Below, piece after piece: positions 1 through 27,906 of a DNA stretch of 64,000 nucleotides. The DNA comes from Hyphomicrobiales bacterium. Lineage in GTDB: Bacteria; Pseudomonadota; Alphaproteobacteria; Rhizobiales; Beijerinckiaceae. The position numbers and the translations under genes are program-made. The stretch covers positions 62,001 through 126,000 of the forward strand of contig UCBZ01000032.1 in assembly GCA_900470775.1 (NCBI GenBank), in the 5' to 3' direction. The notes beneath the pieces are model-generated. The model did no database searches. It saw only the letters and a program-made list of their open reading frames with translations, and was not told the origin of the DNA. How positions within the stretch are numbered: the first letter of the stretch is position 1; every line of letters starts with the position of its first letter.

Positions 1-996
1 ATCGGGCTCGTCGCGTTGCTGCGGCAGCATCTTGCCGTGCATCCGCAGGCGGAGATCGCGGTCGAGATCGATCCGCGCCGGCTCGGAGCCGGCATGACCG
101 CCGCGTTGGCTGAGGCCGGGGTCAATCGCGCCAGCCTCGGCGTGCAGAGCTTCGACCCTGTCGTGCAGAAGGCGATCAACCGCATCCAGGGCGTCGAGCA
201 GACCGCGACGGTCGTCTCGGGGCTGCGCGCCGCCGGCATCGCGGAGGTCAGCTTCGACCTGATCTACGGGCTGCCGAAGCAGACGCTCGAATCCTGCCGC
301 GAAACGATCGAGCAATGCCTTGCCATGCGCCCGGACCGGTTCTCGATCTTCGGCTACGCCCATGTACCGGAGTTCAAGAAGCATCAACGCCGCATCGCGA
401 CATCCGACCTGCCGGACGGCCAGGCGCGGCATGAGCAGGCGGAGACGATGGCGCAGCAGCTCGTCGCAGCTGGCTACGTCCGCGTCGGGCTCGACCATTT
501 CGCCAGGCCCACCGATGCGATGGCGAGGGCGTTGTCGCAGGGCCGGCTCCATCGCAATTTCCAGGGCTACACGACCGATCGCTGCGAGGCGCTGATCGGG
601 CTCGGCGCCTCGGCGATCGGGCGACTGCCGCAAGGCTATGTCCAGAACGACGTGGTGATCGGACGCTATGCCGAGCGCGTCGCCGATGGTGGCCTACCCA
701 CGGGCAAGGGCTATCGCCTGACGGCCGAGGACCGCCTGCGTGCAGAGCTGATCGAGCGGGTGATGTGCGATCTCGCGGTCGACATCGATGCCGTCTGCGA
801 TCAGCATCCAGTCGATCGGCGGGTCCTCGCTTCGTCTCTAGGCAAGCTCGAGGACCTTTCGCGCGCCGGGCTGATCAGCTTCGATGGCAGCCGCGTGCTG
901 CTCCCGGAGAATGCGCGCCTGTTCGTCCGCAAGGTCGCTTCCGCCTTCGATGCGCATCTCGACCAAGCCGGCCGGCAATTCAGCCGGGCAGTCTAG
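1..996 (+). CDS. hemN: Oxygen-independent coproporphyrinogen III oxidase, 5'-truncated by window edge
   Basis: The frame is open from base 1, so about 331 C-terminal residues of a roughly 450-residue protein are visible. HemN is a radical-SAM enzyme that decarboxylates coproporphyrinogen III to protoporphyrinogen IX in heme synthesis without oxygen. Visible family signatures are GVQSFDPVVQKAINRIQ, DLIYGLPKQT, FGYAHVPEFKKHQR, GLDHFARPTDAMARAL, RNFQGYTTD and GLGASAIG. The CxxxCxxC iron-sulfur site would lie upstream of the window. The gene often accompanies denitrification genes in alphaproteobacteria, which fits the nor, nap and pseudoazurin material directly downstream. A paralogue such as hemZ cannot be fully excluded. 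Confidence 0.93.
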   Translation: MGLVALLRQHLAVHPQAEIAVEIDPRRLGAGMTAALAEAGVNRASLGVQSFDPVVQKAINRIQGVEQTATVVSGLRAAGIAEVSFDLIYGLPKQTLESCRETIEQCLAMRPDRFSIFGYAHVPEFKKHQRRIATSDLPDGQARHEQAETMAQQLVAAGYVRVGLDHFARPTDAMARALSQGRLHRNFQGYTTDRCEALIGLGASAIGRLPQGYVQNDVVIGRYAERVADGGLPTGKGYRLTAEDRLRAELIERVMCDLAVDIDAVCDQHPVDRRVLASSLGKLEDLSRAGLISFDGSRVLLPENARLFVRKVASAFDAHLDQAGRQFSRAV

Positions 997-1326
997 CGTC
1001 CGCCCGGGGCCGGTCCACTGGGCTTCGCGGTCGGCTCGAGGGCCATAGCAGCTCCGCCCGGAAAGCCAGGAGAAAGAGCAGGAAGGCGCCGAGCCCGCAT
1101 GCCGCGGCCGGCAGCAGCCAGATGCGGCCTGCGACCTCTGCCATGAGCCTCGCCGGAACCGCCGTGGCGCCGCAGGCCAGTGCCGCTGTCAGCGTCCGGC
1201 CGTCCGAGAAGGGGCGGCGCGTTTGCCGGCGGACCATGCTCGCCATGACAGCAAGGCACATCAGGCCGACCGCTCCGACCGACCAGGCATGGATCGCAGC
1301 GCTTTCGCCGAACGAGCCGAGTCCCC
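980..1326 (-). pseudogene. nnrS-like C-terminal fragment
   Basis: On the minus strand an open frame encodes IHAWSVGAVGLMCLAVM followed by four hydrophobic stretches. It lines up with the C-terminal third of the intact NnrS at 2537-3718, where the matching stretch is IHAWTGGAIGTMTLAVM. The N-terminal two thirds are missing, and a norC start in another frame abuts the fragment near 1326-1330. This reads as the 3' product of a large internal deletion. The tail overlaps the end of hemN by 17 bases. Most likely it is non-functional. Confidence 0.62.
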
Positions 1327-1449
1327 GGTGGACTGCGTCCGCATGAACCAATGGCTGTGGGCGGTCAGCCCCACGAAGATCGCAAAGAAGAAGATCGAGC
1401 CGCCATAGAAAACGTTACGCGCTCCGGTCTTGGTCAGACACTCGGCCAT
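1327..1449 (-). pseudogene. norC N-terminal fragment (nitric oxide reductase subunit C)
   Basis: The first 41 codons, from the ATG at 1449, resemble the N-terminus of NorC: TKTGARNVFYGGSIFFFAIF, then a transmembrane anchor ending VGLTAHSHWF. The cytochrome c part (CxxCH) is absent. The frame runs on into unrelated sequence and stops at 1261, while an nnrS-like C-terminus continues in another frame. NorC anchors a c-type heme subunit of NO reductase in the membrane. This piece cannot bind heme. An FNR/NnrR-like box lies about 110 bp upstream, where a nor promoter would be expected. Confidence 0.65.
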
Positions 1450-1559
1450 GCGCTCATCCTGTTTTCGCGAGTGATCGTTGAATGCCCGGTAGCGCCGGGA
1501 CGACGTCCCCAACGGGCAGGGAGCGTGCGGTTCCTCTATCGCGCCGGAACGGTGCGCTG

Positions 1560-1575
1560 TTTGCGCTTTGACAAA
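1560..1575. promoter_or_regulatory. FNR/NnrR-like box upstream of norC remnant
   Basis: TTTGCGCTTTGACAAA matches the TTG-N8-CAA core used by CRP/FNR-family regulators such as NnrR, DNR and FixK. Its centre is about 118 bp before the norC' ATG, which is read leftward. Motif match only; binding is inferred. Confidence 0.5.
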
Positions 1576-1784
1576 GAGGAGGACGCTCGAAGTGCCGAAT
1601 GCGCTGCGATTTGCGAATGGGCGGCTGCGGCGACCTGGTCGAAGCGCCCGAGCGGGAGGGTCGGCCCGGCAGGGCCGCTCCCGTCGGCCATGGGATGACG
1701 CGCCTCTGCCCCGCGCTCGCCGCCCCGGCTCGCCGCAATGCTAACGGAGCCTGATCGGGCGCTGCGACGGGAAAACCGGCTCTC

Positions 1785-1800
1785 TTTGCGCAAAATCAAA
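1785..1800. promoter_or_regulatory. FNR/NnrR-like box upstream of pseudoazurin gene
   Basis: TTTGCGCAAAATCAAA again has the TTG-N8-CAA core. It lies about 84 bp before the pseudoazurin ATG, a normal distance for activation by an anaerobic or NO-responsive CRP/FNR regulator. Two such boxes within 250 bp, each in front of a denitrification gene, support each other. Confidence 0.55.
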
Positions 1801-1883
1801 CAGCTGACCGAGCCCGGGGCGTATCACGCTCCCCGAGAGCTTCGATGCGGCTCGCCAATTTTGCATCGAAACAGGAGACAGCA

Positions 1884-2339
1884 ATGCGCAAGATGATGAT
1901 GCTTGGAGGCTTCGTGGCGGCCCTTGGAATGGCCGGCCTGGCGCAGGCGGCCGAAGTCGAGGTCAAGATGCTCAACAAGGGAACCGCGGGCGTCATGGTG
2001 TTCGAGCCAGCGCTCGTGAAGATCGCCCCCGGCGACACCGTGAAATTCGTGGCCTCCGACAAGGGGCATAACGTCGAGACCGTTGAGACGATGCTGCCGG
2101 AAGGCGCAAAGGCGTTCGTCGGCAAGATCAACGAAGAGGTCGTCATCGCCTTCGATAAGCCTGGCGTCTACGGCTACAAGTGCAAGCCGCACTATGGAAT
2201 GGGCATGGTCGGCATGGTCGTCGTCGGCGACGCGGGAAACCTCGACCAAGCCAAGGCGGCGACACACCCCGGCAAGGCGAAGCAGGCATTCGCGACACTC
2301 TTCGACAAGCTCGCCACGATGTCCGTTGCATCAAAGTAA
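1884..2339 (+). CDS. Pseudoazurin (type 1 blue copper protein)
   Basis: A 151-residue periplasmic cupredoxin that passes electrons to nitrite reductase or nitrous oxide reductase. The ATG at 1884 was chosen because AGGAGA precedes it and a signal peptide follows (hydrophobic stretch ending AGLAQA-AE). The mature part has the pseudoazurin order: [24 protein letters not shown], the copper ligand His in DKGHNVET, and the C-terminal ligand loop [20 protein letters not shown] (Cys, His and Met). An NnrR-like box sits upstream and a strong hairpin downstream. No nitrite or nitrous oxide reductase is visible here, so the partner must be elsewhere or lost. Confidence 0.93.
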
Positions 2340-2356
2340 CCTTCGCACCTCACATT

Positions 2357-2388
2357 GCGCCGCCGCGACCACCCCGTTGCGGCGGCGC
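2357..2388 (+). terminator. Terminator-like hairpin after pseudoazurin gene
   Basis: A perfect 10-bp stem, GCGCCGCCGC / GCGGCGGCGC, with a 12-base loop, starting 17 bases after the pseudoazurin stop. No clear T-run follows, so it could be an intrinsic terminator or an RNA-stabilising stem. Confidence 0.5.
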
Positions 2389-2536
2389 GCTTCGTCTGGA
2401 GCGCGCCTGTGCCAGGTGAGGAACAAGCTTCGTCCGCAACCTCGTCGCGGTGACGCTGTGGCACAGCCCAGAGGACGGAAAACGGTCGCTCAGCGAGCGC
2501 CGCCGAAGTCTTCTTTCCATCTTATGGAGGATGATG

Positions 2537-3718
2537 ATGGCTCCGATTCCCCGCCTGCGCGACTATGTCGGACCGGCGATCCTCTCCTATGGCTTCCGGC
2601 CGTTCTTCCTCCTGGGCTCGATCTATGCCGGCCTGGCTGTTCTGGCATGGCTGCCGATGTTCCATGGAGAGCTTGAAGTCTCGACCCTCTTCTCGCCACG
2701 CGACTGGCATATCCACGAGATGCTCTACGGCTATCTTCCTGCCGTCGTGACGGGTTTCCTTCTGACGGCGATCCCCAACTGGACGGGACGGTTGCCGCTG
2801 CAGGGCAAGCCGCTGCTCGTCCTCGTCGTCGCCTGGATTCTCGGCCGCCTGGCCGTGACCGGATCCGTCTGGATCGGCTGGCTTCCGGCGGCGGTGATCG
2901 ATCTGTCCTTCCTGCTCCTCGTTGCCGCGGCGGCCGGGCGCGAGATCGTCTACGGGAAGAACTGGCGGAACCTGAAGGTGCTGATCGTGGTGGCGGTGCT
3001 CTTCGGCGGCAACGCGATGTTCCACCTCGAAGCCTACATGCACGGCGCCGCCGACTACGGCATCCGGCTCGGCATCGCGGCGACCATCCTGCTGGTGATG
3101 CTGATCGGCGGCCGCATCGTGCCGAGCTTTACGCGCAATTGGCTGGTCCGGGAGAACCCCGGGCGGCTGCCCGCATCCTCCAGCCATTTCGACATCGCCT
3201 CGATGGTTTGCGCTGGGGCTGCTCTCCTTGCGTGGATCAGCGTTCCGCACGGGGCCGCAACGGGTGCGGCTCTGATCGCCTCGGGGGTCCTTCAGGCCGT
3301 GCGGCTGGCGCGCTGGGCTGGATACCGGACCTGGCGAAAGCGGCTGGTTCTCATCCTCCACGTCGCCTACGCGTTCGTGCCGCTCGGCTTCCTGCTGGTC
3401 GGCCTGGCATCACTTGGTCTGTTGCCTGCGGCCGCCGGCATCCACGCCTGGACAGGCGGCGCCATCGGCACGATGACGCTCGCGGTCATGTCCCGGTCGA
3501 GCCTCGGACATACAGGGCGCCCCCTTGCCGCGAGCGGCCCGGTCCAGGCGATCTATGCCTTGATCGTCCTCTCGGCACTGGCTCGCATCTGCGCCTCGCT
3601 CCATCCGGCGTGGAGCCTGGGTTTGCTGCATGTCGCCGGCCTTGCCTGGGCGGCAGCGTTCCTTGGATTCGCCCTGGCGTATTGGCGTCTCCTGACCCAG
3701 CCGCGCCTGGGGCGTTAG
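2537..3718 (+). CDS. nnrS: NnrS family membrane protein
   Basis: A 393-residue, roughly 12-helix membrane protein of the NnrS family. These heme- and copper-containing proteins occur with denitrification genes and help cells cope with nitric oxide. Family marks are YGFRPFFLLG near the N-terminus, WHIHEMLYGYLPAVVTGFL with its conserved His residues, GRIVPSFTRNWL mid-protein and HAWTGGAIGTMTLAVMSR with LGHTGR near the C-terminus. Three ATGs run in tandem (2531, 2534, 2537). The last is chosen because GGAGG lies six bases upstream. It is downstream of pseudoazurin and probably regulated by the same nitrogen-oxide signals. Confidence 0.93.
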   Translation: MAPIPRLRDYVGPAILSYGFRPFFLLGSIYAGLAVLAWLPMFHGELEVSTLFSPRDWHIHEMLYGYLPAVVTGFLLTAIPNWTGRLPLQGKPLLVLVVAWILGRLAVTGSVWIGWLPAAVIDLSFLLLVAAAAGREIVYGKNWRNLKVLIVVAVLFGGNAMFHLEAYMHGAADYGIRLGIAATILLVMLIGGRIVPSFTRNWLVRENPGRLPASSSHFDIASMVCAGAALLAWISVPHGAATGAALIASGVLQAVRLARWAGYRTWRKRLVLILHVAYAFVPLGFLLVGLASLGLLPAAAGIHAWTGGAIGTMTLAVMSRSSLGHTGRPLAASGPVQAIYALIVLSALARICASLHPAWSLGLLHVAGLAWAAAFLGFALAYWRLLTQPRLGR

Positions 3719-6244: not shown

Positions 6245-8740
6245 CTACTCGGAGCCGCCATCCACAGGCGCATAGAGGACCCGCTCAACGGCATTTGCAG
6301 CCCGGACCTCGCCGTTCGGCCGCGGCGGGTTCTCGCCACGGGGCTTCAGGCGGACGCGTTTGGTCGCGCCGGGCGCAAGGTGGAACCAGCTCTCTTCGGG
6401 CCGCCAGTCGGCATCGACGATATGGACCGACTGCGCCAGGCGCCGGCAGGAGATCGCAAGGCTCCAGCCCTCTCCATCTCGTTCGAGCGCGGCACGCAGA
6501 CCGAGTTCGTGGCGCTCATGGCCGCGGCCGAGCGGGAAATGGAAGGCTTCGGCCAGAACGGCCCCGGCCTCATCGCGCAGTATGGCGGTCGTCACATCAT
6601 GGCCGGGCGGGCCGAAGCGATAGGCATAGGAGATGTCGAAGAAGCGGCCCAGGAGATCGAAGGCCGACAGGCTCGTGCTGCCATGCGCTTGGAGCGCGAC
6701 CGCGCGCGACACCTTCACGACCGCGACCTGGCCGTCGCGCCAGCAGGTCAGTTCGAGATGCGCCGAGAGCGGGACCGGGCGCTCGTTGATCAGATGAATC
6801 GCCAGCCCGTTGACGCCCTCGTCGGTCATCATGACCTGGACCGGACGGAAGGCCCGCGCGAGCCCGTGCCACGCAGCCTTCGGTTCGCCATCGCTGGCGA
6901 TGACGCCCCAGCCCGCGCCAGGCGCGAGATCCTGCAGCAGCCAGACCAGCGCGCCTGATGTCGGCGAACCCGGCCGGCGCCATTCCGCGAACGTCTGCTC
7001 CATCACCTCCGCGGAGGTCGCGCGAGAGAGCGTCAGATAGCGTTCCGGGTCCTCCCGCCGCAACCGCTCCGGGTCCAGCCCGTAGAGCACGCCGAGATAA
7101 TGGTTGCGCACGTCCTCGAAATCCCAGGATGCGCCGAGATCGCGCGGCACGCCGCGCTTCCAGTCCGGGTGATGCGTCAGCGCTGGCGGGTGGCCCGACG
7201 CCAGGGATACCTCTTCGGGCACATTGGCGAAGGCGAGGCTTTCGGCCGCGAACCGGACATGGGCCCGGCGCGCATCGTCGAGCCCGCGCAGATAGGCGCC
7301 GACGCCATAGTAATGGGTCACACCCTTGTCGGCGACGAATGGCAGGGCTCCGCCCGACGGAGAATTCGGCGCATAGGCGAGGTCGGGCCGCAACCGCGAC
7401 ACGACCTGTGGAAGGATGTCGTCGAAGACAGGGCCCGACCACGCTTCGGGCGGCGCGCCCAGCATCGCCGCCTGCTGGAAGACCTCGCTGCCCCCGCAGA
7501 GAACGACGAGGCTCGGCGCGCCTTGCGTCCGGTCCAGCAGGGCTTCGGCTTCCGCGCGGATTGCGTCGCGGAAAGCGACGTCGCCCTGAGGGTAGTCGAA
7601 ATTGGCCAGCATCATCTCCTGCCAGACCATGATGCCGAGCTCGTCGCAGAGCGCGAAGAAGGCGTCGTCCTCATAGGTCATGACGCCGGGCACGCGGATC
7701 AGGTTCATGCCGGCGTCGCGGGCGAGCCTCAGCCAGGGCTCATAGGCCTCGCGCCCACCGGCGAGCGTGACGATATCGGCGCTGCTCCAGCAGGCGCCGC
7801 GGCAGAAGACGGGCACGCCGTTGACGACGAGGCCGAACCCCTCGCCATCCGCACCGCGATCGACCTCCAGAGAGCGGAAGCCGATGCGGCCGAGATCGAT
7901 GGTTTCATCACCGAGATGGAGGGTCAGCGCATGCAGGGCGGGTTCGCCATGGGTGCGCGGGAACCACGGCGCGATGCCGGGCAGTCGGAGCGTGCCCGAC
8001 AGCGTGTCTGGCGCAGTCGTGTCCAGAGTCGCCTCACCTGCGGCGCATCGCATGACCGCGCGTGACGGAACGTCGCCTGCCTGTGTCGCGAGGCGAACCG
8101 TGAGTGCGACCGTTCCGGCCTCACCGTCATAGGTCGTGCGCAGATCGATGCCTGCGACAACTGCAGCCGCCCCGTCGATCTCGACCCGCTGCACCGGCCG
8201 GAATGGACCGGTCGGCAGCCCCGGCGGGCACCAGCCTGGTACCGAGCCCAAGGCCGTCGTGCGGAACCAGCGCAGTCCGTTCGGTTGGATCATCGCCGGC
8301 CGCCAGCGCGAGCGGCGCGGTGCGGCGGCAAGCTTGGGCGCGAGCGCGCGGAAACAAAGCGCGATCTCGGTCCCTGCCGGCGCCTCGACGGACAGCACCA
8401 GCGGCTGGAACATGGAACGACTCTCGGCAGCGAGCGCGCCGTCGATCCAGATCTCGGTCCAGCTCGCCAACCCGTCGAAACGCAGCTCGCCGTTCAGCGC
8501 CCGGTCGAGCCGGGTCAGGTACCAATGGTCCTGCCCGCCGACAGCCCGCGCCGTCGCATCCGTCAGACGCCCGAGCGCACGCAAGGTGCCGGCGACCGTG
8601 CCGGGGACGACCGCCGGCTGCCAGTCACCGTCGCGCGGCAGATCGGGGGGAGCCGCAACGGCATCGGCCGCCGTTGCCAGCCAGCGCCAGTTCCCGATCG
8701 CCTCGGCGCTCTCGGCCTGGCGCGCGACGATGCGGGCCAT
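6245..8740 (-). CDS. Glycoside hydrolase family 2, beta-mannosidase-like
   Basis: An 831-residue protein built like a beta-mannosidase. It has an N-terminal jelly-roll (QPAVVPGTVAGTLRALG), a mid Ig-like part, a TIM-barrel core (RGACWSSADIV, DAGMNLIRVPGVMTYEDDAF, VWQEMMLANFDYP) and C-terminal Ig-like domains. The general acid is probably Glu419 in LVVLCGGSEV, where the usual motif is WNGNNE. The nucleophile is probably Glu500 in RFAAESLAFANVP. The Trp-Asn-Gly-Asn of the acid motif has become Leu-Cys-Gly-Gly, so substrate choice may differ. No signal peptide is seen. It is the last gene of the carrier-protein operon, starting 6 bp after the DUF1839 gene. Confidence 0.85.
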   Translation of the reverse strand: MARIVARQAESAEAIGNWRWLATAADAVAAPPDLPRDGDWQPAVVPGTVAGTLRALGRLTDATARAVGGQDHWYLTRLDRALNGELRFDGLASWTEIWIDGALAAESRSMFQPLVLSVEAPAGTEIALCFRALAPKLAAAPRRSRWRPAMIQPNGLRWFRTTALGSVPGWCPPGLPTGPFRPVQRVEIDGAAAVVAGIDLRTTYDGEAGTVALTVRLATQAGDVPSRAVMRCAAGEATLDTTAPDTLSGTLRLPGIAPWFPRTHGEPALHALTLHLGDETIDLGRIGFRSLEVDRGADGEGFGLVVNGVPVFCRGACWSSADIVTLAGGREAYEPWLRLARDAGMNLIRVPGVMTYEDDAFFALCDELGIMVWQEMMLANFDYPQGDVAFRDAIRAEAEALLDRTQGAPSLVVLCGGSEVFQQAAMLGAPPEAWSGPVFDDILPQVVSRLRPDLAYAPNSPSGGALPFVADKGVTHYYGVGAYLRGLDDARRAHVRFAAESLAFANVPEEVSLASGHPPALTHHPDWKRGVPRDLGASWDFEDVRNHYLGVLYGLDPERLRREDPERYLTLSRATSAEVMEQTFAEWRRPGSPTSGALVWLLQDLAPGAGWGVIASDGEPKAAWHGLARAFRPVQVMMTDEGVNGLAIHLINERPVPLSAHLELTCWRDGQVAVVKVSRAVALQAHGSTSLSAFDLLGRFFDISYAYRFGPPGHDVTTAILRDEAGAVLAEAFHFPLGRGHERHELGLRAALERDGEGWSLAISCRRLAQSVHIVDADWRPEESWFHLAPGATKRVRLKPRGENPPRPNGEVRAANAVERVLYAPVDGGSE

Positions 8741-8746
8741 CCGCGT

Positions 8747-9766
8747 TCAGGCCGCGAAGCGGCGGGCAAGCGCCTCGCTGACGACGTCATGTTCCAAGGC
8801 GAGAGCCGCCAGGCTCGCATCGAAACGCTCGAAGCGCTTCTGCTTCACCGCCCGCGCCAGGTGGAACTGGGCGATCTTCGCGCCTTCGGCGATCCGAAGC
8901 GCCGCCTCTCTCGCATCGGCCAGCCCGTCCAGCGTGGCACCCAGCCATTCGAGATGGGTCGCCAGCAACTCGAAATTGGCGCCGAGCTGGCGCAGCGTAT
9001 TGAACGCATAGAGATGGAAGGCGTCCCCCGGCCGCTCGGCGAGAGCCTGTGCCTGCGCGGTCGCGACCGCGCGAAAGGCTGAAACCGGGTTGGCTTTCGG
9101 CCGCCTCGCGACATGGCGTGACAGCAGCGCGAGCGCGGTCGCTCGCAGGTCCGCATCGCCAGGCGGATGCTCGGGCAGGCGCACCATCTCCGCATAGGGA
9201 AACAGCGTGTCCTCGCGGATCTGGCCCGGCAGCAGGCGCAGGAGCCCGTCGAAATCCTCGCCCAGGGCGCGGTGCAGCCCATCATTGTGGAAGTAGTCGA
9301 GCGCGCGGCCTGCGCGGTCGAGGCGGTTGACCGCGATCGTGGTCTTGCCGTGGCTGGCGCGATAGGAGACGCCCTGCGTGTCGGGCATGTAGAAGGAATC
9401 AAGCTCGATCAGTACCAAGCGACGCCGAGCGATCTGCTGCTCGAGATGGCCGATCAGGTCGTCATAAAGCGCAAGCTCCGTGACGCGCAGGCCGTAGAGG
9501 GCTTCGAGATCGTCGAGCGGTGGCTTGAAGAATGTGAACTGGTCGCCTTCGAAATCCTGCGCGACGGTGAAGCCGAAGGCGGCCGCAGGCTCGGTGCCAA
9601 GCGCATGAAGGATTTCGATCCAGAGATCGGCATAGCAGTTCGTCTGCGGCCAGTGTCGATCGCCGGAATGCATCGCATGCCGGCGATAAGCCAGCGGATC
9701 GCCCGGCAGAAGCGGCTCCGGACCCGCTGGGACGACGGGGCGGCCCATCGTGGCGTGGACGGTCAT
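8747..9766 (-). CDS. DUF1839 family protein
   Basis: A 339-residue soluble protein of unknown function, recognised as DUF1839 by motifs such as HWPQTNCYADLWIEILHALG near residue 40, DFEGDQFTFFKPPLDDLEAL and LIELDSFYMPDTQGVSYR. The conserved Asp, His and Tyr residues (SYRASHGKT, YFHNDGLHRALGEDF) could form an active site, perhaps a cysteine-protease or transglutaminase-like one with the Cys of TNCYADLW. That is speculation. It lies 5 bp after the amino acid:carrier-protein ligase, so it is an obvious candidate to act on the amino acid once it is on the carrier. Confidence 0.82.
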   Translation of the reverse strand: MTVHATMGRPVVPAGPEPLLPGDPLAYRRHAMHSGDRHWPQTNCYADLWIEILHALGTEPAAAFGFTVAQDFEGDQFTFFKPPLDDLEALYGLRVTELALYDDLIGHLEQQIARRRLVLIELDSFYMPDTQGVSYRASHGKTTIAVNRLDRAGRALDYFHNDGLHRALGEDFDGLLRLLPGQIREDTLFPYAEMVRLPEHPPGDADLRATALALLSRHVARRPKANPVSAFRAVATAQAQALAERPGDAFHLYAFNTLRQLGANFELLATHLEWLGATLDGLADAREAALRIAEGAKIAQFHLARAVKQKRFERFDASLAALALEHDVVSEALARRFAA

Positions 9767-9771
9767 GGTGC

Positions 9772-10692
9772 TTATGGCCAGAGAACGGCGCGCACAGCCG
9801 TCGGCCAGGCCTGGACGTCGAAGCCATGATGCTTGAACAGCGCCAGCGCGACGCGCTCCATGCCGAAGCCGACGCAGGCCGTATGCGCGGTCTCGCCGTC
9901 TTCCGTCTTGATGCCCCAGGTCGTGCCGAAATGGTCCTGGTGGTAATTGAACGAGAGGCAGGCGGTCGGCTTCTCGACGCTTTCGATCGGGATCAGGAGT
10001 TCGAATTTCAGGCGCTGGTCGCGCTGGTTGTTGGCGAGCATGCGCCCCGCGCGGCCAAAGAACGGATCATTGGCGACATCGACATGCAGCGGCATCCCCA
10101 GCGAGGCCATCATCGTCTGGCCACGCTCCAGCCAGGTCGCGCGGAACTCGGTGACCTGGTCGGGTGTTCCGAAGCGCACATACTCGCGCATCCGGAAGAG
10201 CTGCATGCGGGCCGGATCCTTGGAGGGCTCGTGCCTGAAGCAGTACGACTGCAGGTCGAACAGCGCGCCGCCCTTGCCGACCGGGCCGCGCTTGGCGACG
10301 ACGGGGTAGAGCACATAGCAGGCAGCCGGGGTGAGCACGATGTCGGTGGACTTCTGGCCGACCGTCCAGTCCACACCGTCGGTGACGTTGTGAAGCAGTT
10401 CGGCATGAGCCCGCTCGTCACCCTCGAAGGCGTGCACGGTGCCCGCGAGCTGCGGGAAGCTCTTGAGGTAGCCGCTCTTCTCGAAATGCTTGCGGTTCAT
10501 CGCCGGCGGAAAGCGCGCGACCTCGGCCCCGTCCTGGCCGCCATAGCGGGTGATCAGGTCATCGAAGCGGGCCACGACCTCCTCGAACAGGCCGCTACGG
10601 CCATAGAGACCGTCGACGCCGGTATCGATCAGCAGGCCACTGTCGATGAGTTCAGCAAGGAAACCCTGCTGCTGTTCGCAATTCTGGCACAT
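9772..10692 (-). CDS. Amino acid:[carrier protein] ligase (SerRS-like)
   Basis: A 306-residue homologue of the catalytic domain of atypical seryl-tRNA synthetases with no tRNA-binding domain. In Bradyrhizobium and Agrobacterium such proteins load glycine or alanine onto the phosphopantetheine arm of a small carrier protein through an aminoacyl-adenylate. Zinc ligands fit by spacing: Cys125 ([11 protein letters not shown]), Glu170 (RMREYVRFG, class II motif 2) and Cys273 ([11 protein letters not shown], motif 3). The LNN segment ([19 protein letters not shown]) is also typical. A carrier protein gene lies two genes upstream in the same operon, as expected for this family. Confidence 0.93.
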
Positions 10693-10697
10693 TCAGA

Positions 10698-11963
10698 TCA
10701 CCGGGACAGGCTGGAATCGTGCTTGTACACGGCCAGCAAATTGGAAGTATTTCCGAGGATTCGGTCGTTGTTGATCATGATCGGCGCCGAGAGCGCGTCC
10801 CGCATGAGGCGGGCCAGGCTCGACGGGCTGTCGTTGCGATAGCCCTGGATGCCGCAGATCAGGAAGGCCTGGCTGACGATCTCGCCGACGCTCTGCGAGG
10901 CGGCGATCTTGATGCTGTTCATCGCCACGACGAAGCCCATCGAGGAGAGTTCGTCGGCGTCGTCACGGGCGCGCTCATAGCGGTCGAGCCCCGCGACGAC
11001 CAGCGCCTTGAACTGCTGCAGACGGGCGAGCAGCTCGGCCAGGCGCAGGGCACTTGGCGGTGTCGTGCCCGGGCGCTTGCGGGCCTCGCCGCGCACGAAG
11101 CTCTCGGCACGGGCGACGGCCTCGGCGGCAATGCCGTACCAGACGCCGGCCCAAAGCAGATGGGCATGGGCGAGCATGGATTGCGCCGCGATCTCGGCGA
11201 AGGGCGTCGGAATGATCTGTTGCGCGGGGGCGCGGCCGGCAAAGGTGAAATTGTCGGAACAGGTACCGCGCATGCCCATCGTGTCCCAGACGGCGCTGCG
11301 CTCCAGCCGATACTGGTCGCGGGTCACGACCGCCATGACCTGGTCGGAGGGCGGCGCTTCGGGCGTGCGGCGGGCCGTGATCAGGATGGCATCGGCCTGC
11401 GCGCCATAGGAGATCAGGCAGCCCTCCTTTTCGAGGGTGAAGTCCTCGCCGTCGCGCATGACGCCGCAGACGCTGCTGCGCAGGTCACCGCCGACGCCGC
11501 CGCCTTCGGTCGTGGCCGAAGCGAGCAGGAGCTGCTCGTCGGCGATCCGTGCCATGAAGCCGCGATGCCAGGTGTCCGCGCCGCAATGGACCACGAGGCT
11601 CGACACCTTGATCTGGTGCATTGCGTAGATCATGCCGGTCGAGGAGCAGCCCCGGGCCAGGATTGACCCGATCTCGGCGATGGTGGCGAGGCTCGCCTGC
11701 TCGCCGCCATGGGCTGCCGGGATCATGATGCCGAGAAGACGTTGCGTCCGCAGCGCTTCGAAGGCCTCCTGCGGGAAGCGCGCCTTCGCATCGACGTCGG
11801 CGGCATGCTCGGCCGCGATCCTTGCGACAGCACGGGCCCTGGCGATCATGGCCTTTTCGGACTCTGCGCGCGCACCGAGATCGACCAGGACAGGGCGCTG
11901 CCTGCTTTCAATCGACGCCTTCGGCTGCGGTTCGGTCGCCGGACGGCTGGCGGCCGGCGACAT
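10698..11963 (-). CDS. Acyl-CoA dehydrogenase-like flavoprotein
   Basis: A 421-residue protein with the acyl-CoA dehydrogenase fold. An all-helical N-domain (AFEALRTQRLLGIMIPAAHG) is followed by a beta domain (LLLASATTEGGG, YGAQADAILITARR) and a C-terminal helical bundle (SQAFLICGIQGYRNDSPSSLARLMRDALS). The ATG at 11963 overlaps the carrier-protein stop (TGATG), which indicates translational coupling. In known pathways, relatives oxidise amino acids held on a carrier protein, for example prolyl to pyrrolyl. Here it probably acts on the aminoacyl-carrier made by the ligase encoded 5 bp downstream. Confidence 0.88.
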   Translation of the reverse strand: MSPAASRPATEPQPKASIESRQRPVLVDLGARAESEKAMIARARAVARIAAEHAADVDAKARFPQEAFEALRTQRLLGIMIPAAHGGEQASLATIAEIGSILARGCSSTGMIYAMHQIKVSSLVVHCGADTWHRGFMARIADEQLLLASATTEGGGVGGDLRSSVCGVMRDGEDFTLEKEGCLISYGAQADAILITARRTPEAPPSDQVMAVVTRDQYRLERSAVWDTMGMRGTCSDNFTFAGRAPAQQIIPTPFAEIAAQSMLAHAHLLWAGVWYGIAAEAVARAESFVRGEARKRPGTTPPSALRLAELLARLQQFKALVVAGLDRYERARDDADELSSMGFVVAMNSIKIAASQSVGEIVSQAFLICGIQGYRNDSPSSLARLMRDALSAPIMINNDRILGNTSNLLAVYKHDSSLSR

Positions 11964-12208
11964 CAGACGCGCTCGCTCTGGATGCTCTGGATCGCGTTTT
12001 CGATCGCCGCGACGGAAGCGAAGTTGCGGCGGTTCATCATCTTGTCGGGGAACTCGACCTCGAAGGCTTCTTCCAGCGCCATCATCAGCTCGACGGTGCC
12101 GAACGAGGTCAGGCCGGCATTGTAGAGATCGGCGTCGTCGGAGAGGGTGGCGACGTCGACCGGCAGCCGGGCCGTCGTCTTGAGAATGTCCTTGATCCTG
12201 CTCTTCAT
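11963..12208 (-). CDS. Acyl/aminoacyl carrier protein
   Basis: An 81-residue, acidic, four-helix carrier protein. The phosphopantetheine attachment serine is Ser35 in LYNAGLTSFGTVEL, where Thr replaces the Asp of the usual DSL motif. Helix II (ELMMALEEAFEVEFPDKMM) is well conserved. It is the first gene of the operon and its stop overlaps the dehydrogenase start by one base. It is the likely acceptor for the amino acid activated by the SerRS-like ligase. A phosphopantetheinyl transferase is not encoded nearby. Confidence 0.92.
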   Translation of the reverse strand: MKSRIKDILKTTARLPVDVATLSDDADLYNAGLTSFGTVELMMALEEAFEVEFPDKMMNRRNFASVAAIENAIQSIQSERV

Positions 12209-13520: not shown

Positions 13521-14801
13521 TCAGACGGTCCTGGCGGCCAGGTAACCCGGGCGCGGGTCCGCAGGCTCAGCGGCCAACCTCGCTTTGGCCGCATCGGGAG
13601 CGGCATCGCTCGTGCCCATCAGGAACCACAGCAGCGCGGCGGTCTTGATCGAGTAGACGGAATCGCTGACGAGCATCAGCAGGCAGATATACGCCGCGAC
13701 ACTGGCCTTGAATCGCCAGGCCCGGGGCGAGCGCTCCGGTGTGAAAATGAAAAGGCTCCAGAAGCCGATCACGCCGATCAGGCCGATCTGGTTGAGCGAA
13801 TAGGCGTAACCCGAATCCGAGAGGAAGGGCTTGTCCGGCGAAAGGCCCCATACAGCCGACGGCGACAGCGAAGTTATGAGCCGCGCCGTCCAGAGGAGGC
13901 GGCCGCCGAAGTTGTTCTGCCAGTTCACCTCCGCACTGGTGAAGCCGTATATGGCCAGCCCAGCCAGCGCGAAGAAGGGCGCGGCCAGCCAGACGAAGCG
14001 TGGCGTGCGCGCCGCGAAGAACCAGGCGATCGTCGCGACGATGCAGACATTGGCGCCGAACCGGGAGTCGCTGAGGATGATCGCGCCGATGCCCGTCGCC
14101 ATCGTCAGCCAACGCTTGCTCATCTCTTTCCGGTTCAGGCACCAGATATAGATGATCGCGCCGAAATTTCCGGTCGAGATCGGCTCCAGGAAGACGGATG
14201 AGGCGCGGTGTGGTCCCAGGAAGGGCAGCAGCGTGCGCGCATCGGGCCGTATGCCCGATGCAAAGAGCGCTCCGGTCTCGGCCTTGACGTCGGAGGGCGC
14301 GACCGTGCCGCGCGCGACGTAGTATTTGATGATGTTGAAATATTTGACGTAGACGTCGAGCGCCAGGAATTCAAAAAGGCCGAAGACGACGACGATCAGG
14401 CCGCAGGTCAGGGCTGCACGATCGGCCAGCCGCGGATCCCGGCAGCTCCGCCCGAGCAGGTAGAAGGCGATCGGGATCAGAAAGTCGCGTACCGCCTTCG
14501 GGTCGAGCAACGGGCGCATCGCCATCAGCATGGCGGCGTAGGAGAGGAAGACCGCCAGCACGACATAGGGCGCCGCGCTCCGGCCGAGGCCGAGATAAAG
14601 CGCGGTGGCAACGAGCACGACCTCGGAGCCCATGACCATGGTGTCGTTGACGCCCATGACATTCGTGTTGAGGAAGCACAGTGCAGTGTTGAAGGTGAGC
14701 GCTCCCACCAGCAGCGCGAGCACCAACGGCGCTGGCGGATGCGGGCCATCTGCATCCCCGAGATGATGCCCGGCGACCATCAGGCAGCAGCCCTTGGCCA
14801 C
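13521..14801 (-). CDS. O-antigen/exopolysaccharide polymerase-like (Wzy)
   Basis: A 426-residue protein with about ten transmembrane helices and a large outer loop near residues 170-220 (KYYVARGTVAPSDVKAETG). This is the topology of Wzy and ligase-type polymerases, which join lipid-linked repeat units at the outer face of the inner membrane. Sequence in this family is poorly conserved, so the call rests on topology and on neighbours. Its start overlaps the end of the Wzc-like gene by 22 bases, showing they are co-expressed. Confidence 0.75.
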   Translation of the reverse strand: MAKGCCLMVAGHHLGDADGPHPPAPLVLALLVGALTFNTALCFLNTNVMGVNDTMVMGSEVVLVATALYLGLGRSAAPYVVLAVFLSYAAMLMAMRPLLDPKAVRDFLIPIAFYLLGRSCRDPRLADRAALTCGLIVVVFGLFEFLALDVYVKYFNIIKYYVARGTVAPSDVKAETGALFASGIRPDARTLLPFLGPHRASSVFLEPISTGNFGAIIYIWCLNRKEMSKRWLTMATGIGAIILSDSRFGANVCIVATIAWFFAARTPRFVWLAAPFFALAGLAIYGFTSAEVNWQNNFGGRLLWTARLITSLSPSAVWGLSPDKPFLSDSGYAYSLNQIGLIGVIGFWSLFIFTPERSPRAWRFKASVAAYICLLMLVSDSVYSIKTAALLWFLMGTSDAAPDAAKARLAAEPADPRPGYLAARTV

Positions 14802-16816
14802 CTTCCAAACAGGCGCTCGTCTTCGCCCGGGGTCACGAGCGCGACGACGAGTTCGCCTGTCGGATCGACTTCCGCGGCCGCCTTGATGATGTCGGGCGCC
14901 CCCATCCCCGAGAGATCCGCCGCCAGCACGACCGCATCGGGCGAGACCGCGCGGGGGCTGGCGACCGCACCGGACCGCAGGACGAGTACGAAATTGCTGC
15001 GACGCGACGCAGCTCCCGACGCGCCCGTGCCCGTGTCGAAGCGCCGGATATTGACGTCGTTGCGCCCCGCGCTCTCGCGATAGATCAGGACGCTCTCGCC
15101 GATCTCAGCCAGGGCTTGGGCAAGATGCTGCGCGATATCGGCCTGCGCCGCAGCGTCGAGCGGGCCGGCGATCAGGACGGAAGCCGGCAGGTGCCGCCCG
15201 AACTGCGCCTGGAGCAGTTTTGCGACCGGGACGAGCGCAGCCAGCCGCCCGGCGATGTCCTTGGGTAGCCGCGCCACGCTGGCAACGCCGAGAATTTCTC
15301 CGGCCTGCTTGGGCGTCAATGCGCTCTGCGGCAGCAGTTTGCCGACCCGTGGGGGCAGCAACTCCATGAGATAGGCGACGCCCAATCCGGCGCAGGCTCC
15401 AAACAGCAAAGCGACGGCCAGGACGATGATCGCAGGCGGCTTGGATGCGACCGCGGGCGGAACGGCTTCGGACAGCAGGCGAGAATTGCTCGTCTCGATC
15501 TTCTTCTGCTGATCGAGTTCGCGGGCACGGGTCAACGACGCATTGTAGACGGCCCGGATCGCCTCGGCCTCGCTCTCGAGCTGGCGGAGCCGGATCTGGG
15601 CGACCCCGCTGTTTTCCTGCGACCTCGTCAATTCACCGGCGCGCTTTTGGAGGTTAGCGAGGTTCGACTCTGCCTGGCGGTAGGCCTGCTGTACCGAGGA
15701 GCGGACGCGCCCGAGTTCCGCGGCGAGCAGTTTGCGCGTCTCGGCCAATTCCGCCCGGATCTCGAGCAGTCGCGGATGCTGGGGCATAAGCGTTTGCGCC
15801 AGGCTCGCCGCCTCGCGCGCCGTCTGTGCGTATTGCGTGCGCAGCGAGACGATGCTGGTCGAGGTCAGGGCCTCGGGAATGGTATCGGAGAGCAGCGCAG
15901 TGTCGCGCAGGTTGGCGATGCCGTCGCGACGCGCCGTCTGGCGGGCAAGTTCCGCGTTGGCCTGGCCGATCTGGGTATAGAGATCGCGCAGCTGCTGCGT
16001 CACGACGAGTCCGGTCTCGCCGGTGCTGACGAGGTTGTTCTTGATCCGGAAGGCCTGGATGGCCGCTTCCGCATCGTTGAGCTGCGTCCGCAGTCCGGCG
16101 ATCTGGCTGATCAAAGACTCGTTGGCGCGCTCGACCGCGCCGCGACGCCCGTCATTGCCCTGGCGAAAATAGGCCCTGGCGAGCGAGTTCGCGATATCGG
16201 CCGATTTTTCCGCCTCGGGATGCGACACGATGATGCGGAAGACCAGCGAGTTCTCTACGCGCTGGATGACGATGGCACGGCGCAGCGCATCCATCGTCTG
16301 GGCTGCGCGCTGTTGCGGGGTCGGCATCAAAAGCTTGCCGAAAAGGCGCGCGAGAATCCCGGGCTGAGGCGTGAAGGCAGCGTCCTGCTCGAGGTCGAGA
16401 TCGCTGATCACCTGGCGCAGCACGCCCGACGAGGTCATTACCAGCGACTGGCTGTCGACATTGGCGAAGTCGATCGAGGCCGAGCTGTCGGCGCGCACGA
16501 TATCCTTGCCGACGATCTGCAACGCCTGCGGATCGACCAGCAATTCGGCCGTCGCGCGATAAACCGGCGTCTGGACGGCGAGATAGGCGAGCGCGAGCAG
16601 CAGCGTCAGACCGGCGCTGGCCGCCACCATCCGGCGCCTGCGCTTCAACAGGCCCAGGAGCTCCGGCAAGCTGAATGCCGAGGTCGGCGATGGCGCGTCG
16701 CGTCGTCCGCCGACCTCCAACGCAGCAACCACCTGAAGCCTCCCGAAACGCGGCCTGATGCCCCCGGCCGGTTCTGCTGGCCCGAAGGGCAGATAGCCGA
16801 AGGCGCTGAAATCCAA
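14780..16816 (-). CDS. Polysaccharide co-polymerase (Wzc/GumC-like) with degenerate kinase domain
   Basis: A 678-residue inner-membrane chain-length protein. The Wzz domain lies at about residues 46-200 (SLPELLGLLKRRRR, transmembrane helix 63-83, VYRATAELLVDPQALQIVG). A long coiled-coil region spans about 225-445 and a second transmembrane helix 461-485. A cytoplasmic part (505-678) is shaped like a BY-kinase, but where Walker A should stand it reads SVLIAGPLDAAAQADI (about 546-561), without the GKT lysine. Autokinase activity is therefore unlikely. It controls chain length and export with the polymerase gene just downstream. Confidence 0.88.
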   Translation of the reverse strand: MDFSAFGYLPFGPAEPAGGIRPRFGRLQVVAALEVGGRRDAPSPTSAFSLPELLGLLKRRRRMVAASAGLTLLLALAYLAVQTPVYRATAELLVDPQALQIVGKDIVRADSSASIDFANVDSQSLVMTSSGVLRQVISDLDLEQDAAFTPQPGILARLFGKLLMPTPQQRAAQTMDALRRAIVIQRVENSLVFRIIVSHPEAEKSADIANSLARAYFRQGNDGRRGAVERANESLISQIAGLRTQLNDAEAAIQAFRIKNNLVSTGETGLVVTQQLRDLYTQIGQANAELARQTARRDGIANLRDTALLSDTIPEALTSTSIVSLRTQYAQTAREAASLAQTLMPQHPRLLEIRAELAETRKLLAAELGRVRSSVQQAYRQAESNLANLQKRAGELTRSQENSGVAQIRLRQLESEAEAIRAVYNASLTRARELDQQKKIETSNSRLLSEAVPPAVASKPPAIIVLAVALLFGACAGLGVAYLMELLPPRVGKLLPQSALTPKQAGEILGVASVARLPKDIAGRLAALVPVAKLLQAQFGRHLPASVLIAGPLDAAAQADIAQHLAQALAEIGESVLIYRESAGRNDVNIRRFDTGTGASGAASRRSNFVLVLRSGAVASPRAVSPDAVVLAADLSGMGAPDIIKAAAEVDPTGELVVALVTPGEDERLFGRWPRAAA

Positions 16817-17212: not shown

Positions 17213-18439
17213 ATGCGGATTCTGATGGCCTGTGCGGCATTCCCTCCGTTCATCGATGGCGGCGGGCCGATTTCGGCGATGATCGTGGCGAAGCTGCTGC
17301 TGGCGGCAGGCCACGATATCGAGGTGATCAACGTCGCCGATGAGGACAAGCACGAGATATTCGACGGCGTGCCGGTCCACAGGCTGCGTTCGCTCAATAT
17401 CGACTGGAACTACCGCCTGCCGCGCCCCGCGTGGAAAAAGCTCGCCTGGCATGCGCTGGAGAATTTCAATCCCCGCGCCTTCTTCGCCATGCGCCGCGAG
17501 ATCAGGCGCATCCGACCCGACATCGTGCTCACGGACTCGATCGAGAACGTCAACGTGGCGACCTGGGCAGCGGCCAGAAGCCAGGGCGTGCCCGTCTGCC
17601 ATATCCTGCGGAGCACCTTTCTCCTGTGCTGGAAGGGCAGCATGTGGCGCAACGGCGACAATTGCGCCCGCGCCTGCGGCTCCTGCCGGACGACCTCCTA
17701 TGGCAAGAAGCTGACGTCGCGCTTCGTCGATGCCGTGATCGGCGAGACCGATTTCATCGTGGCGCGGCATCTCGACGAGGGCTATTTCCCTCACGCCACC
17801 TCACATCGCATTCCCGGCGCGATCGCGCCGCACGGTTCAGCCGTGCCTCGCGAGGGTCCGCGCGACGGCCGGCCGTTGCGGTTGGGCTTCATCGGTGTCC
17901 ATGATGCGATCAAGGGACTCGACACGCTGGCTGCGGCCGCCCATCGCCTGAAAGGCCAGCCAGTCGAATTCCTGATCGCCGGAACCGGGAAAGGCGATTA
18001 CGCCGCCGCGCTGCCGGAGCGGTTCCCGAGTGAGAACACACGTTTCCTCGGCTGGGTTCAGCCCGATGCCTTCTTTCCCCAGATCGACGTGCTCGTGGTG
18101 CCCTCCGTCTTCCGGGAACCCTTCGGCCGCGTCGTGATCGAGGCGTTCGTCCATGGTGTTCCGGTGATCGGAGCGCGCTCGGGTGGAATACCCGAGACGA
18201 TCGAGCCCGGCGTGAGCGGCGCGCTGTTCGCGCCCGGAGACGATGGCGCCCTGGCGCAGCAGATCACGGAACTGGTCCAAAACCCGGAGCGCATCGCCAG
18301 CCTGTCCACCGGGGCGCTCGAAGCGGCGCGGCGCTATGCGCCCGAACGGATCGCAGCGTCCTATGAGGCCGTCTTCGCCGAGCTGCTGCGCAATGCGCAG
18401 CGGCGCCGCGTGCCGGCGATACAGGACGCAACGCCGTGA
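17213..18439 (+). CDS. Glycosyltransferase family 4
   Basis: A 408-residue GT-B enzyme that transfers a sugar from a nucleotide donor with retention. The N-domain begins MRILMACAAFPPFIDGGGP. The C-domain contains LRLGFIGVHDAIKGLDTL and the donor-site EX7E motif, Glu to Glu in REPFGRVVIEAFVHGVPVIG. GGAGAAAGGGAG precedes the ATG. An unusual cysteine group, CARACGSC near residue 155, sits in the acceptor domain and could bind a metal. First gene of the rightward operon; its stop overlaps the flippase start (GTGA). Confidence 0.88.
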   Translation: MRILMACAAFPPFIDGGGPISAMIVAKLLLAAGHDIEVINVADEDKHEIFDGVPVHRLRSLNIDWNYRLPRPAWKKLAWHALENFNPRAFFAMRREIRRIRPDIVLTDSIENVNVATWAAARSQGVPVCHILRSTFLLCWKGSMWRNGDNCARACGSCRTTSYGKKLTSRFVDAVIGETDFIVARHLDEGYFPHATSHRIPGAIAPHGSAVPREGPRDGRPLRLGFIGVHDAIKGLDTLAAAAHRLKGQPVEFLIAGTGKGDYAAALPERFPSENTRFLGWVQPDAFFPQIDVLVVPSVFREPFGRVVIEAFVHGVPVIGARSGGIPETIEPGVSGALFAPGDDGALAQQITELVQNPERIASLSTGALEAARRYAPERIAASYEAVFAELLRNAQRRRVPAIQDATP

Positions 18440-24124: not shown

Positions 24125-24690
24125 GTATTTGACGTGATCGTTGTCGGGGGCGGCGCCGGACTGATGAGCGCCCCTGCCGCGGCCAGGCATGGGCGTCCGG
24201 CGCGGCTGACGGAGACGGGATCCCGGCTCGGCGATATGATCTGCCTCGGCATCGCCCTCACGGGCCCGCGGCCGGAGCCGCCGCACAACAAGCCACGTCT
24301 CCGTGCCATCACCCCTCGCACGCGGCTTTATCTGGCGCCTCGAAAAAGCCTGGCTAAGAAGCGGCGTCACAATCCAATCCAAGGCGCCCATTCGCCAATT
24401 GATATATGAAGGCACCCGTTGCAAGGTGTCGGCATTGCTACGTCTTCACCCAAAAAGCCACGAGGATTCAGGCAATTTCAGCTTGGCGCGATCTTTGCCT
24501 CAGGCAAATTCGGCGTCGCGGCGTTGGAAGGCCGGCGCCGATATATGAGCAGGCAGACTGTTCGATATCGGTAGCAACAATCCTCGCGTGCCAGCGGCGG
24601 ACAGATGATGGTCGAGGCGGAGGGCGCCGAAGTCGTGAACGGGAATCTGGCATGGGGACCGGACATTCGCTTTGCCGTACCAGCGCATCC
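24125..24690 (+). pseudogene. Decayed FAD-binding oxidoreductase gene
   Basis: Three frames carry pieces in order. First is an FAD-binding start, FDVIVVGGGAGLMSAPAAAR (24128 on). Next comes a middle piece RGFIWRLEKAWLRSGVTIQS, then APIRQLIYEG, like the stretch before the flavin-domain strand. Last is LFDIGSNNPRVPAADR with GAEVVNGNLAWGPDIRF. This is the general plan of KstD/fumarate-reductase-type flavoproteins. Frameshifts and deletions make it non-functional. It sits directly upstream of a TRAP transporter operon and may once have belonged to it. The rest of 23956-24883 holds nothing I can name. Confidence 0.45.
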
Positions 24691-24883
24691 CTGTGCGATC
24701 GCGCCCTGGACTGGCAGCGAGCAACACCGGCGTCACGCCCATGACCTCGCTTTGGCCTCATCCAGCCGGCCCGCCCGCAATGCCGCTCTCGCGGCTCCTC
24801 CCGACCGAGCATCAGGCGATGCCGGACGGGGCACCGCAACGAGACATCTGCCAGAAATCAAAACAGAGGGAAGGGGAATAACC

Positions 24884-27835: not shown

Positions 27836-27906
27836 GCTGTGCGGGCGGGCTTCGGAACGCCTGAGTGCCGACCCGCCCAGTTGGCAAACCCCGGAAGGAG
27901 ATGCCC

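Follow-up and report, generated by a model that had tools for sequence, protein, structure and literature searches.

Five closely packed genes on the minus strand of the window (the whole stretch of 64,000 nucleotides that was analysed, from contig UCBZ01000032.1 of the Hyphomicrobiales bacterium assembly GCA_900470775.1) encode a carrier protein (CP), a flavoprotein of the acyl-CoA dehydrogenase (ACAD) fold, a SerRS-like amino acid:[carrier protein] ligase, a DUF1839 protein and a GH2 protein (Table 1). The CP and ACAD-like genes overlap by 1 bp, and the gaps that follow are of 5 bp (ACAD-like/ligase), 5 bp (ligase/DUF1839) and 6 bp (DUF1839/GH2). A first-pass annotation, made from the sequence alone, had recognized these five leftward genes, and its coordinates, strand and family identities were all borne out; it missed the polysaccharide genes near the operon and, adjoining them about 7.6 kb away, a gene encoding a tandem alpha/beta-hydrolase protein (ABH). 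ABH is a sixth component of the system, new in this survey, and is inherited together with DUF1839.

Table 1. Genes of the six-protein system and neighbouring polysaccharide genes in the window, with DUF1839 copies of other loci that lack Cys44
Feature	Position	Strand	Basis
Carrier protein (CP), 81 aa	11963-12208	-	PF00550, E 1.1e-8; PRK07081, 107.8 bits
Acyl-CoA-dehydrogenase-fold flavoprotein (ACAD-like)	10698-11963	-	PF02771/PF00441 above cut-off
SerRS-like amino acid:[carrier protein] ligase, DUF1839-linked type, 306 aa	9772-10692	-	PRK07080, 504.3 bits
DUF1839 protein, candidate acyl transferase from CP to acceptor	8747-9766	-	PF08893, 405 bits
GH2 protein, beta-mannosidase type	6245-8740	-	5n6u, 9.3e-45
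Tandem alpha/beta-hydrolase protein (ABH)	19833-21677	+	TIGR03101-like N half, TIGR03100-like C half
Wzx-type flippase	18436-19836	+	NCBIfam MOP flippase similarity, below cut-off
GT4 glycosyltransferase	17213-18439	+	PF13692/PF00534
Wzz-type chain-length protein	14780-16816	-	PF02706, PF13807
Wzy-like membrane protein	13521-14801	-	provisional name from location and appearance; Pfam and NCBIfam searches without a match
DUF1839 copies without Cys44	L020:12895-13872; L153:8401-9378; L144:1465-2448	+	

The distribution of the genes was examined in a sample of 297 genomes from 123 genera of the order, of which 49 genomes (22 genera) have DUF1839 and 64 have the ligase, counted when above its curated cut-off (six genomes with ligases below the cut-off were left out of the co-occurrence). 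Rare co-occurrence of the operon genes in other genomes, which would have told against the grouping made in the first pass, was not what was found: the ligase gene lies upstream of DUF1839 on the same strand in 49/49 genomes, with 31-455 nt between the matches (Fisher P = 4e-43, a value that, like the one below, overstates the association because the genomes are not independent), and in one of them (G421) DUF1839 is split in two pieces. ABH, sought with a profile at E <= 1e-60, is present in exactly the 49 of 297 genomes that have DUF1839 (Fisher P = 3e-57; 22 of 123 genera); the weakest best hit was 1.8e-137, with nothing between that and the limit, up to four candidates being scored per genome and weaker hits not displayed. 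In 37 of the 49 genomes no more than 20 kb separate ABH from DUF1839; in the other 12 ABH is farther off or on another contig. The GH2 profile was run on 80 genomes (the 49 with DUF1839, 15 with the ligase only, 11 others without DUF1839, and 5 reached via loci) and matched in 48 of the 49 DUF1839 genomes, in two of them in two pieces (G446, G457), and in none of the 26 genomes without DUF1839 (15 ligase-only and 11 others); the single miss, G507, is a draft 83% complete in about 480 contigs. The source genome, a Bosea, has a single DUF1839 and a single ligase, the latter 97% identical to that of Bosea vaviloviae, and the ligase is patchy within the genus (10 of 25 members, source genome included, among 41 genomes searched). 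Sparser sampling across the class and across the phylum gave DUF1839 in 2 of 190 and 16 of 398 genomes, respectively.

Individual loci gave a similar picture. From the best 80 of 301 loci, the 63 of at least 15 kb were counted, a gene being scored as present at a match of at least 30 bits irrespective of order: 53 of these long loci have all six genes, five are without ABH, three without GH2 and ABH, and two have CP and ligase only. ABH was found elsewhere in the genome in all ten cases tested (nine of the ten incomplete loci, L095 being the exception, plus L084), and in L039 it lies just past the end of the stretch, adjoining a Wzx gene. Both genomes with CP-ligase-only loci carry DUF1839 on the same contig as an ABH, and GH2 is present in 5/5 genomes whose long locus was without it, adjoining ABH in two (G848, G850). 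Annotated records of Azospirillum, R. leguminosarum, Mycetohabitans and Caballeronia show the operon genes in the order CP-ACAD-ligase-DUF1839-GH2, and all six genes are also found together in a betaproteobacterial record (L017) and in a shorter locus of a Myxococcaceae metagenome-assembled genome (L070).

The two halves of ABH resemble the exosortase A-associated hydrolases, the N half hydrolase 2 (TIGR03101, 74 bits, cut-off 202.75) and the C half hydrolase 1 (TIGR03100, 99 bits, cut-off 168.45), both below cut-off. Unlike those proteins, ABH fuses the two, and at the expected nucleophile column of its N half there is no Ser (59 rows: 35 with Arg, 24 with Gly). In the C half, Cys433 (within a conserved GxCxG), Asp560 and His593 are kept in 26/26 rows of alignment A4, and in 57/59, 56/59 and 56/59 rows, respectively, of a larger set, the misses being two truncated rows plus L020 for Asp and His. 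This Cys-Asp-His triad looks catalytic.

The ligase is well above its PRK07080 cut-off (357 bits), matches the Bll0957 structures (PDB 3mey and others), and shares with Bll0957 both the ligase family and the zinc ligands. The three zinc ligands seen in the first pass correspond to C125, E170 and C273, mapped by alignment to Bll0957, in which we take these positions to bind zinc, and are kept in 98/98 rows. There is no tRNA-binding domain, type-2 SerRS 3w3s being matched over its residues 311-505 only, and the CP gene is two genes from the ligase gene; the ligase probably loads an amino acid on CP. The amino acid used is presumably Ala in the Agrobacterium enzyme and Gly in Bll0957, and the helix in the 4h2w chimera is presumably the Agrobacterium one.

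Two kinds of ligase locus were distinguished. Fifteen of the 64 ligase genomes of the order sample are without DUF1839, and in seven stretches from such ligase-only genomes (L146-L152) the ACAD and ligase genes are adjacent (7/7), a divergent CP is present in six, and DUF1839, GH2 and ABH are found in none. The ligases of these stretches fall in one clade (clade B or type B; nine rows, two being the same gene) with support of 100/100, outside which the Bosea rows L021 and L025 fall. The tree contained 94 of 116 ligases, 13 of the Bosea group and 9 relatives having been removed as near-copies; L001, L010, L014, L101-L145 and hits below 200 bits were left out beforehand, and the window ligase was represented by the 97% identical L021. 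Four rows without DUF1839 in their stretch sit outside clade B: L019 of Priestia, which is distant; L042, the stretch of which stops at the ligase; and L052 and L062, the genomes of which carry DUF1839 elsewhere. The crystallised Bll0957 is nearly identical to L146 across its length (714 bits), and is therefore a member of clade B; an ACAD-like gene neighbours the ligase of L146, but the Bll0957-type CP is divergent, and no DUF1839, GH2 or ABH was found in the Bll0957-type genome G248 or in the other 14 ligase-only genomes. Because of this clade split, Bll0957 may not be the right model for the pathway of the window. Clade-B loci appear to be another pathway around Bll0957-type ligases. Among the seven clade-B stretches, genes named by eye were a second small acyl carrier protein (ACP)-like gene (4/7), AMP-ligase-like (5/7), SDR-like (5/7) and aminotransferase-like (3/7) genes, and a gene for a GNAT-like protein common to 3 to 5 of the 7.

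The CP-ACAD-ligase trio occurs in a third setting, a Priestia plasmid (L019:8139-16686), with genes for AcpS, an ATP-grasp protein, alanine permease and alanine racemase, and also with a D-Ala-D-Ala ligase gene; this has the look of a gene cluster for a small molecule assembled on an alanyl carrier protein. Since the trio is found in several settings, it is a reusable module, which in one pathway is joined by DUF1839, GH2 and ABH. That DUF1839 and ABH are distributed identically, that GH2 accompanies them and that the ligase clades are split marks out six genes to be treated as a unit.

CP scores 108 bits against PRK07081 (cut-off 72), and its phosphopantetheine Ser35, which the first pass had also named and which, numbered here from the ATG, is Ser61 of the longer open reading frame, is Ser in 91/91 rows (residue counts are of one best copy per locus, near-copies retained). 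The flavoprotein exceeds the Pfam cut-offs in its N-terminal (PF02771) and C-terminal (PF00441) domains, its middle domain (PF02770) being below (28.3 vs 33.3). In a profile alignment to 8i4p, Ile399 (residue numbers start two residues ahead of the start Met) aligns with the Glu of the IYEGT motif of 8i4p, which we take to be the catalytic residue. Of the 91 rows, 81 have Ile and 10 have Val at this usual (MCAD-type) dehydrogenase Glu site, and inspection of 18 rows by eye showed no Glu at the alternative helix-G site. His118, His270, Trp273, Trp277 and Arg403 are invariant in the 91 rows; the signature is also present, with small changes, in clade B and Priestia. Ile or Val at the Glu site suggests oxygenation rather than plain dehydrogenation, which is less likely because the flavoprotein is without Glu at the usual site. 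If clade B loads Gly, as we assume, there is no beta carbon and desaturation would be impossible there, so that oxidation at N or C-alpha is favoured. The flavoprotein is a candidate oxygenase acting on amino-acyl-CP. Its similarity to the ACAD-fold (group D) flavin monooxygenases, DnmZ (4zxv, 1.3e-12) and 4kcf/3m9v (2.9e-11; presumably KijD3), is weaker than that to dehydrogenases.

The DUF1839 protein is far above the PF08893 cut-off of 22.5 bits, and Cys44 is kept in 90 of 91 rows (one gap), Thr/Ser142 in 91/91 and His160 in 91/91, the best copy being taken for each locus. In its passage on the family, a study of 2023 placed DUF1839 in the papain-like fold with a C(T/S)H triad and suggested that it may process glycans at the cell wall (PMC10318531). 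Cys44-Thr142-His160 of the window protein agrees with the triad described there and looks catalytic. Each of three two-copy genomes (L020; G781 = L153; G717 = L129/L144) has one copy without Cys44 and another with the full triad; the Cys-less copies (Table 1) have Arg or Gln at position 44 and Ser (in two) or Ala (in one) at 142, His160 being kept, and in L020 and L153 the operon copy is the Cys-less one. Such copies are possible pseudoenzyme partners. No solved structure matched the DUF1839 sequence up to E 5, and one matched its profile, at E 9.2.

The GH2 protein narrowly misses the Pfam cut-off (25.9 vs 27), yet matches a solved beta-mannosidase (Table 1). E419 and E500 are each kept in 74/74 rows and are the putative catalytic pair, E419 being assigned by alignment. 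The residue before the acid/base Glu is Ser418 in 74/74 rows, compared with Asn in the aligned 6byg and 6bye; the beta-mannosidase-type Asn ahead of the acid/base Glu was found in none of the 74. A role in anti-phage defence was considered and rejected: PADLOC gave only a match of GH2 to a beta-galactosidase-containing fusion model (6.9e-9), and none for the other five proteins.

In the window, ABH adjoins polysaccharide genes (Table 1), and parts of this arrangement recur. Genes for ABH, Wzx and GT4 stand together with a GH5-like gene in Bosea, Pannonibacter, Stappia and G310; a Wzx homologue is near the system in Pannonibacter, Stappia, Chenggangzhangella and G310, the GT4 homologue adjoins Wzx in other genera, and Wzy-like homologues are near the system in L039, L089 and L162. 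Counted at 100 bits or more, and with the GH5-like and membrane-protein genes of the window added to the query, homologues of the polysaccharide genes of the window are present in 23 of the 63 long loci, 15 of them from Bosea and close relatives and 8 from others (Chenggangzhangella, two Pannonibacter, Breoghania, three Stappia and Rhizobium Root482). Clustering of the flanking genes yielded mainly spurious frames from close relatives and was set aside. In Agrobacterium, Atu2577, Atu2582 (UDP-GlcNAc dehydrogenase) and the glycosyltransferases Atu2583, Atu2590 and Atu2592 are described, in the passage concerned, as an uncharacterised glycan cluster linked to phenazine tolerance (PMC9790009).

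The first-pass annotation had proposed a candidate undescribed pathway, but the neighbourhood and essentially the same idea were already in print in 2010, in a note in proof that linked a SerRS paralogue to ACP, a 'Rossmann fold monooxygenase/dehydrogenase', the conserved ORF Atu2574, a glycosidase and liposaccharide genes, and that foresaw Atu2574 joining the amino acid through an amide bond to an amino group of a surface sugar, with a probable monooxygenation (PMC2922099). This independent prediction also speaks for the link to a glycan. The ligase, ACP, redox enzyme, conserved ORF, glycosidase and polysaccharide genes of that passage are all present in the window, Atu2574 being presumed to be DUF1839; the passage names no alpha/beta-hydrolase protein and gives no co-inheritance counts. 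A passage in PMC9437257 gives the biological role as unknown, and other papers naming Bll0957 or Atu2573 do so, in the passages concerned, in expression or network mentions only. No later identification of the product was found in the open-access literature, among the matches listed. The pathway is real and sharply defined, and was predicted in outline before; this survey adds ABH as its sixth member, the division of ligase loci into two kinds, and the evidence from conserved residues.

Two known systems are comparable in part. As in the Dlt system for D-alanylation of teichoic acids, an amino acid on a carrier protein would be destined for a surface polymer. There, the ligase, DltA, is of the ANL type and the transferase, DltB, is a membrane protein, and neither a DltA-type ligase nor a DltB-type transferase is among the five operon genes. 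The butirosin pathway builds an amino acid on a carrier protein, includes a flavoprotein step and uses a papain-like transferase to sugar. The window system would be like it in its carrier-bound amino acid, flavoprotein step and papain-like protein for transfer to sugar, and unlike it in that the ligase is of another family, DUF1839 has Cys-Thr-His, and similarity of DUF1839 to BtrH_N is sub-threshold. The role of BtrH in assembly of the butirosin side chain is covered in the same 2023 study, in its passage on that protein (PMC10318531).

The six proteins are read here, with confidence only slightly better than even, as a cytoplasmic pathway in which an amino-acid-derived acyl group on a dedicated CP is installed on a sugar, which most probably serves as a unit of a glycan at the surface or exported from the cell. 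The basis of this reading is gene order, co-inheritance, family identity and conserved candidate catalytic residues; we infer each chemical step, which amino acid and which sugar take part, that the product goes to a glycan, and that the proteins work in the cytoplasm, the last because no signal peptide was seen by eye. The ligase would activate a small amino acid (of the Gly or Ala type) with ATP and pass it to the phosphopantetheine of CP, where the ACAD-fold flavoprotein would oxygenate it by oxidation at N or C-alpha. The acyl group would then move to Cys44 of DUF1839 and from there to an amino or hydroxyl group of the sugar, as with BtrH in butirosin, and GH2 and the Cys-type ABH would act late, trimming or transferring the sugar-bound product ahead of export. 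The dedicated amino-acyl-CP pathway with some connection to sugar that the first pass had put forward is supported. A fuller version is unlikely to hold in every part: an obligate six-enzyme pathway, derived from a captured tRNA-synthetase core, in which an amino acid would be oxygenated at N or C-alpha on CP and then coupled by a papain-like Cys-Thr-His transferase to an exopolysaccharide amino sugar, with a cytoplasmic GH2 and the Cys-type ABH completing the sugar. If true, it would be a new class of glycan decoration.

Several results weigh against the six-protein glycan pathway. At the 100-bit threshold, 40 of the 63 long loci are without a homologue of the polysaccharide genes, and such homologues were found in 2 of 12 further DUF1839 stretches and in 1 of 7 clade-B stretches, so that part of the glycan link may be background. 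Nothing in the records of Azospirillum, R. leguminosarum and Mycetohabitans marks them plainly as glycan clusters, and the loci showed no shared gene for an acceptor sugar. The solved structures that the flavoprotein matches best carry the name dehydrogenase, and the closest of them, chain 7p98, has Thr at the site in question; missing Glu alone therefore does not exclude a dehydrogenase, and the case against a plain dehydrogenase, which is disfavoured for want of Glu at the usual site, is weakened accordingly. Similarity of DUF1839 to BtrH_N (PF14399) is weak, with 7 of 41 members matching at E up to 1 (best 0.0069), and an implausible family, IL11, scores better (0.0023, in four members). 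Among 20 proteins, the four DUF1839 members with BtrH_N rows score 15.6-17.1 bits, below the cut-off of 29.7, and share a register (residues 69-72 to 126-129 on model positions 67-68 to 123-126), but are from Azospirillum or close kin and are not independent; the window protein itself has no PF14399 match. A comparison of DUF1839 with two single BtrH_N sequences by hhalign was negative, six shuffled and two unrelated control sequences scoring like BtrH_N.

The prevalence of long loci without strong polysaccharide homologues is also what would be expected if the product of the six genes were a small metabolite free to diffuse (such as a signal or antimetabolite carrying a sugar or an aminoacyl group), with GH2 and ABH for maturation or self-protection, and the reuse of the CP-ACAD-ligase trio in small-molecule-like loci (type B; the Priestia plasmid) points the same way. 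Recurrence of ABH-Wzx-GT4 blocks, together with GH5, in Bosea, Pannonibacter, Stappia and G310, the Agrobacterium glycan cluster as described in its passage (PMC9790009) and the lack of an exporter gene between the five operon genes argue against a metabolite, which is given well under an even chance.

The remaining alternatives concern individual enzymes. The scheme of the first pass has the loaded amino acid dehydrogenated by the flavoprotein and then altered or set free by DUF1839, with GH2 acting on the acceptor sugar. The naming of the nearest solved relatives as acyl-CoA dehydrogenases, the nearest of them (7p98) being likewise without Glu, is consistent with that scheme, as are the conserved catalytic Glu residues of GH2. 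However, Ile or Val fills the MCAD-type site in 91/91 rows, no helix-G Glu was seen, and the active-site signature is kept in the other clade, where Gly, if it is the amino acid used, offers no beta carbon. This makes plain dehydrogenation the less likely course; for DUF1839, acyl transfer is more probable than modification or release, the part given to GH2 is conjectural, and the scheme as a whole is the least probable of those weighed here. It is also quite improbable that DUF1839 serves, as a thioesterase or protease, to rid CP of wrongly loaded groups and that ABH is the true transferase. Papain-like enzymes are often hydrolases, and ABH has both an invariant triad in alignment A4, with its Cys in GxCxG, and the same phyletic pattern as DUF1839; yet DUF1839 directly follows the ligase in 49/49 genomes, compared with 37/49 for ABH within 20 kb of DUF1839. 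The glycan pathway, in which DUF1839 would be the acyl transferase, offers functional hypotheses for DUF1839 (PF08893) and for the exosortase-hydrolase-like fusion protein.

Other genes of the window were named by eye from their translations or by family. Near the cluster, at 16-3718, are genes for a HemN-like and a cupredoxin-like protein and for an NnrS-like membrane protein (named by eye). Downstream of the polysaccharide genes are a DctP-type solute-binding protein gene (24605-25945, + strand) and a gene for a dihydrodipicolinate-synthase-family protein (27865-28869, + strand).

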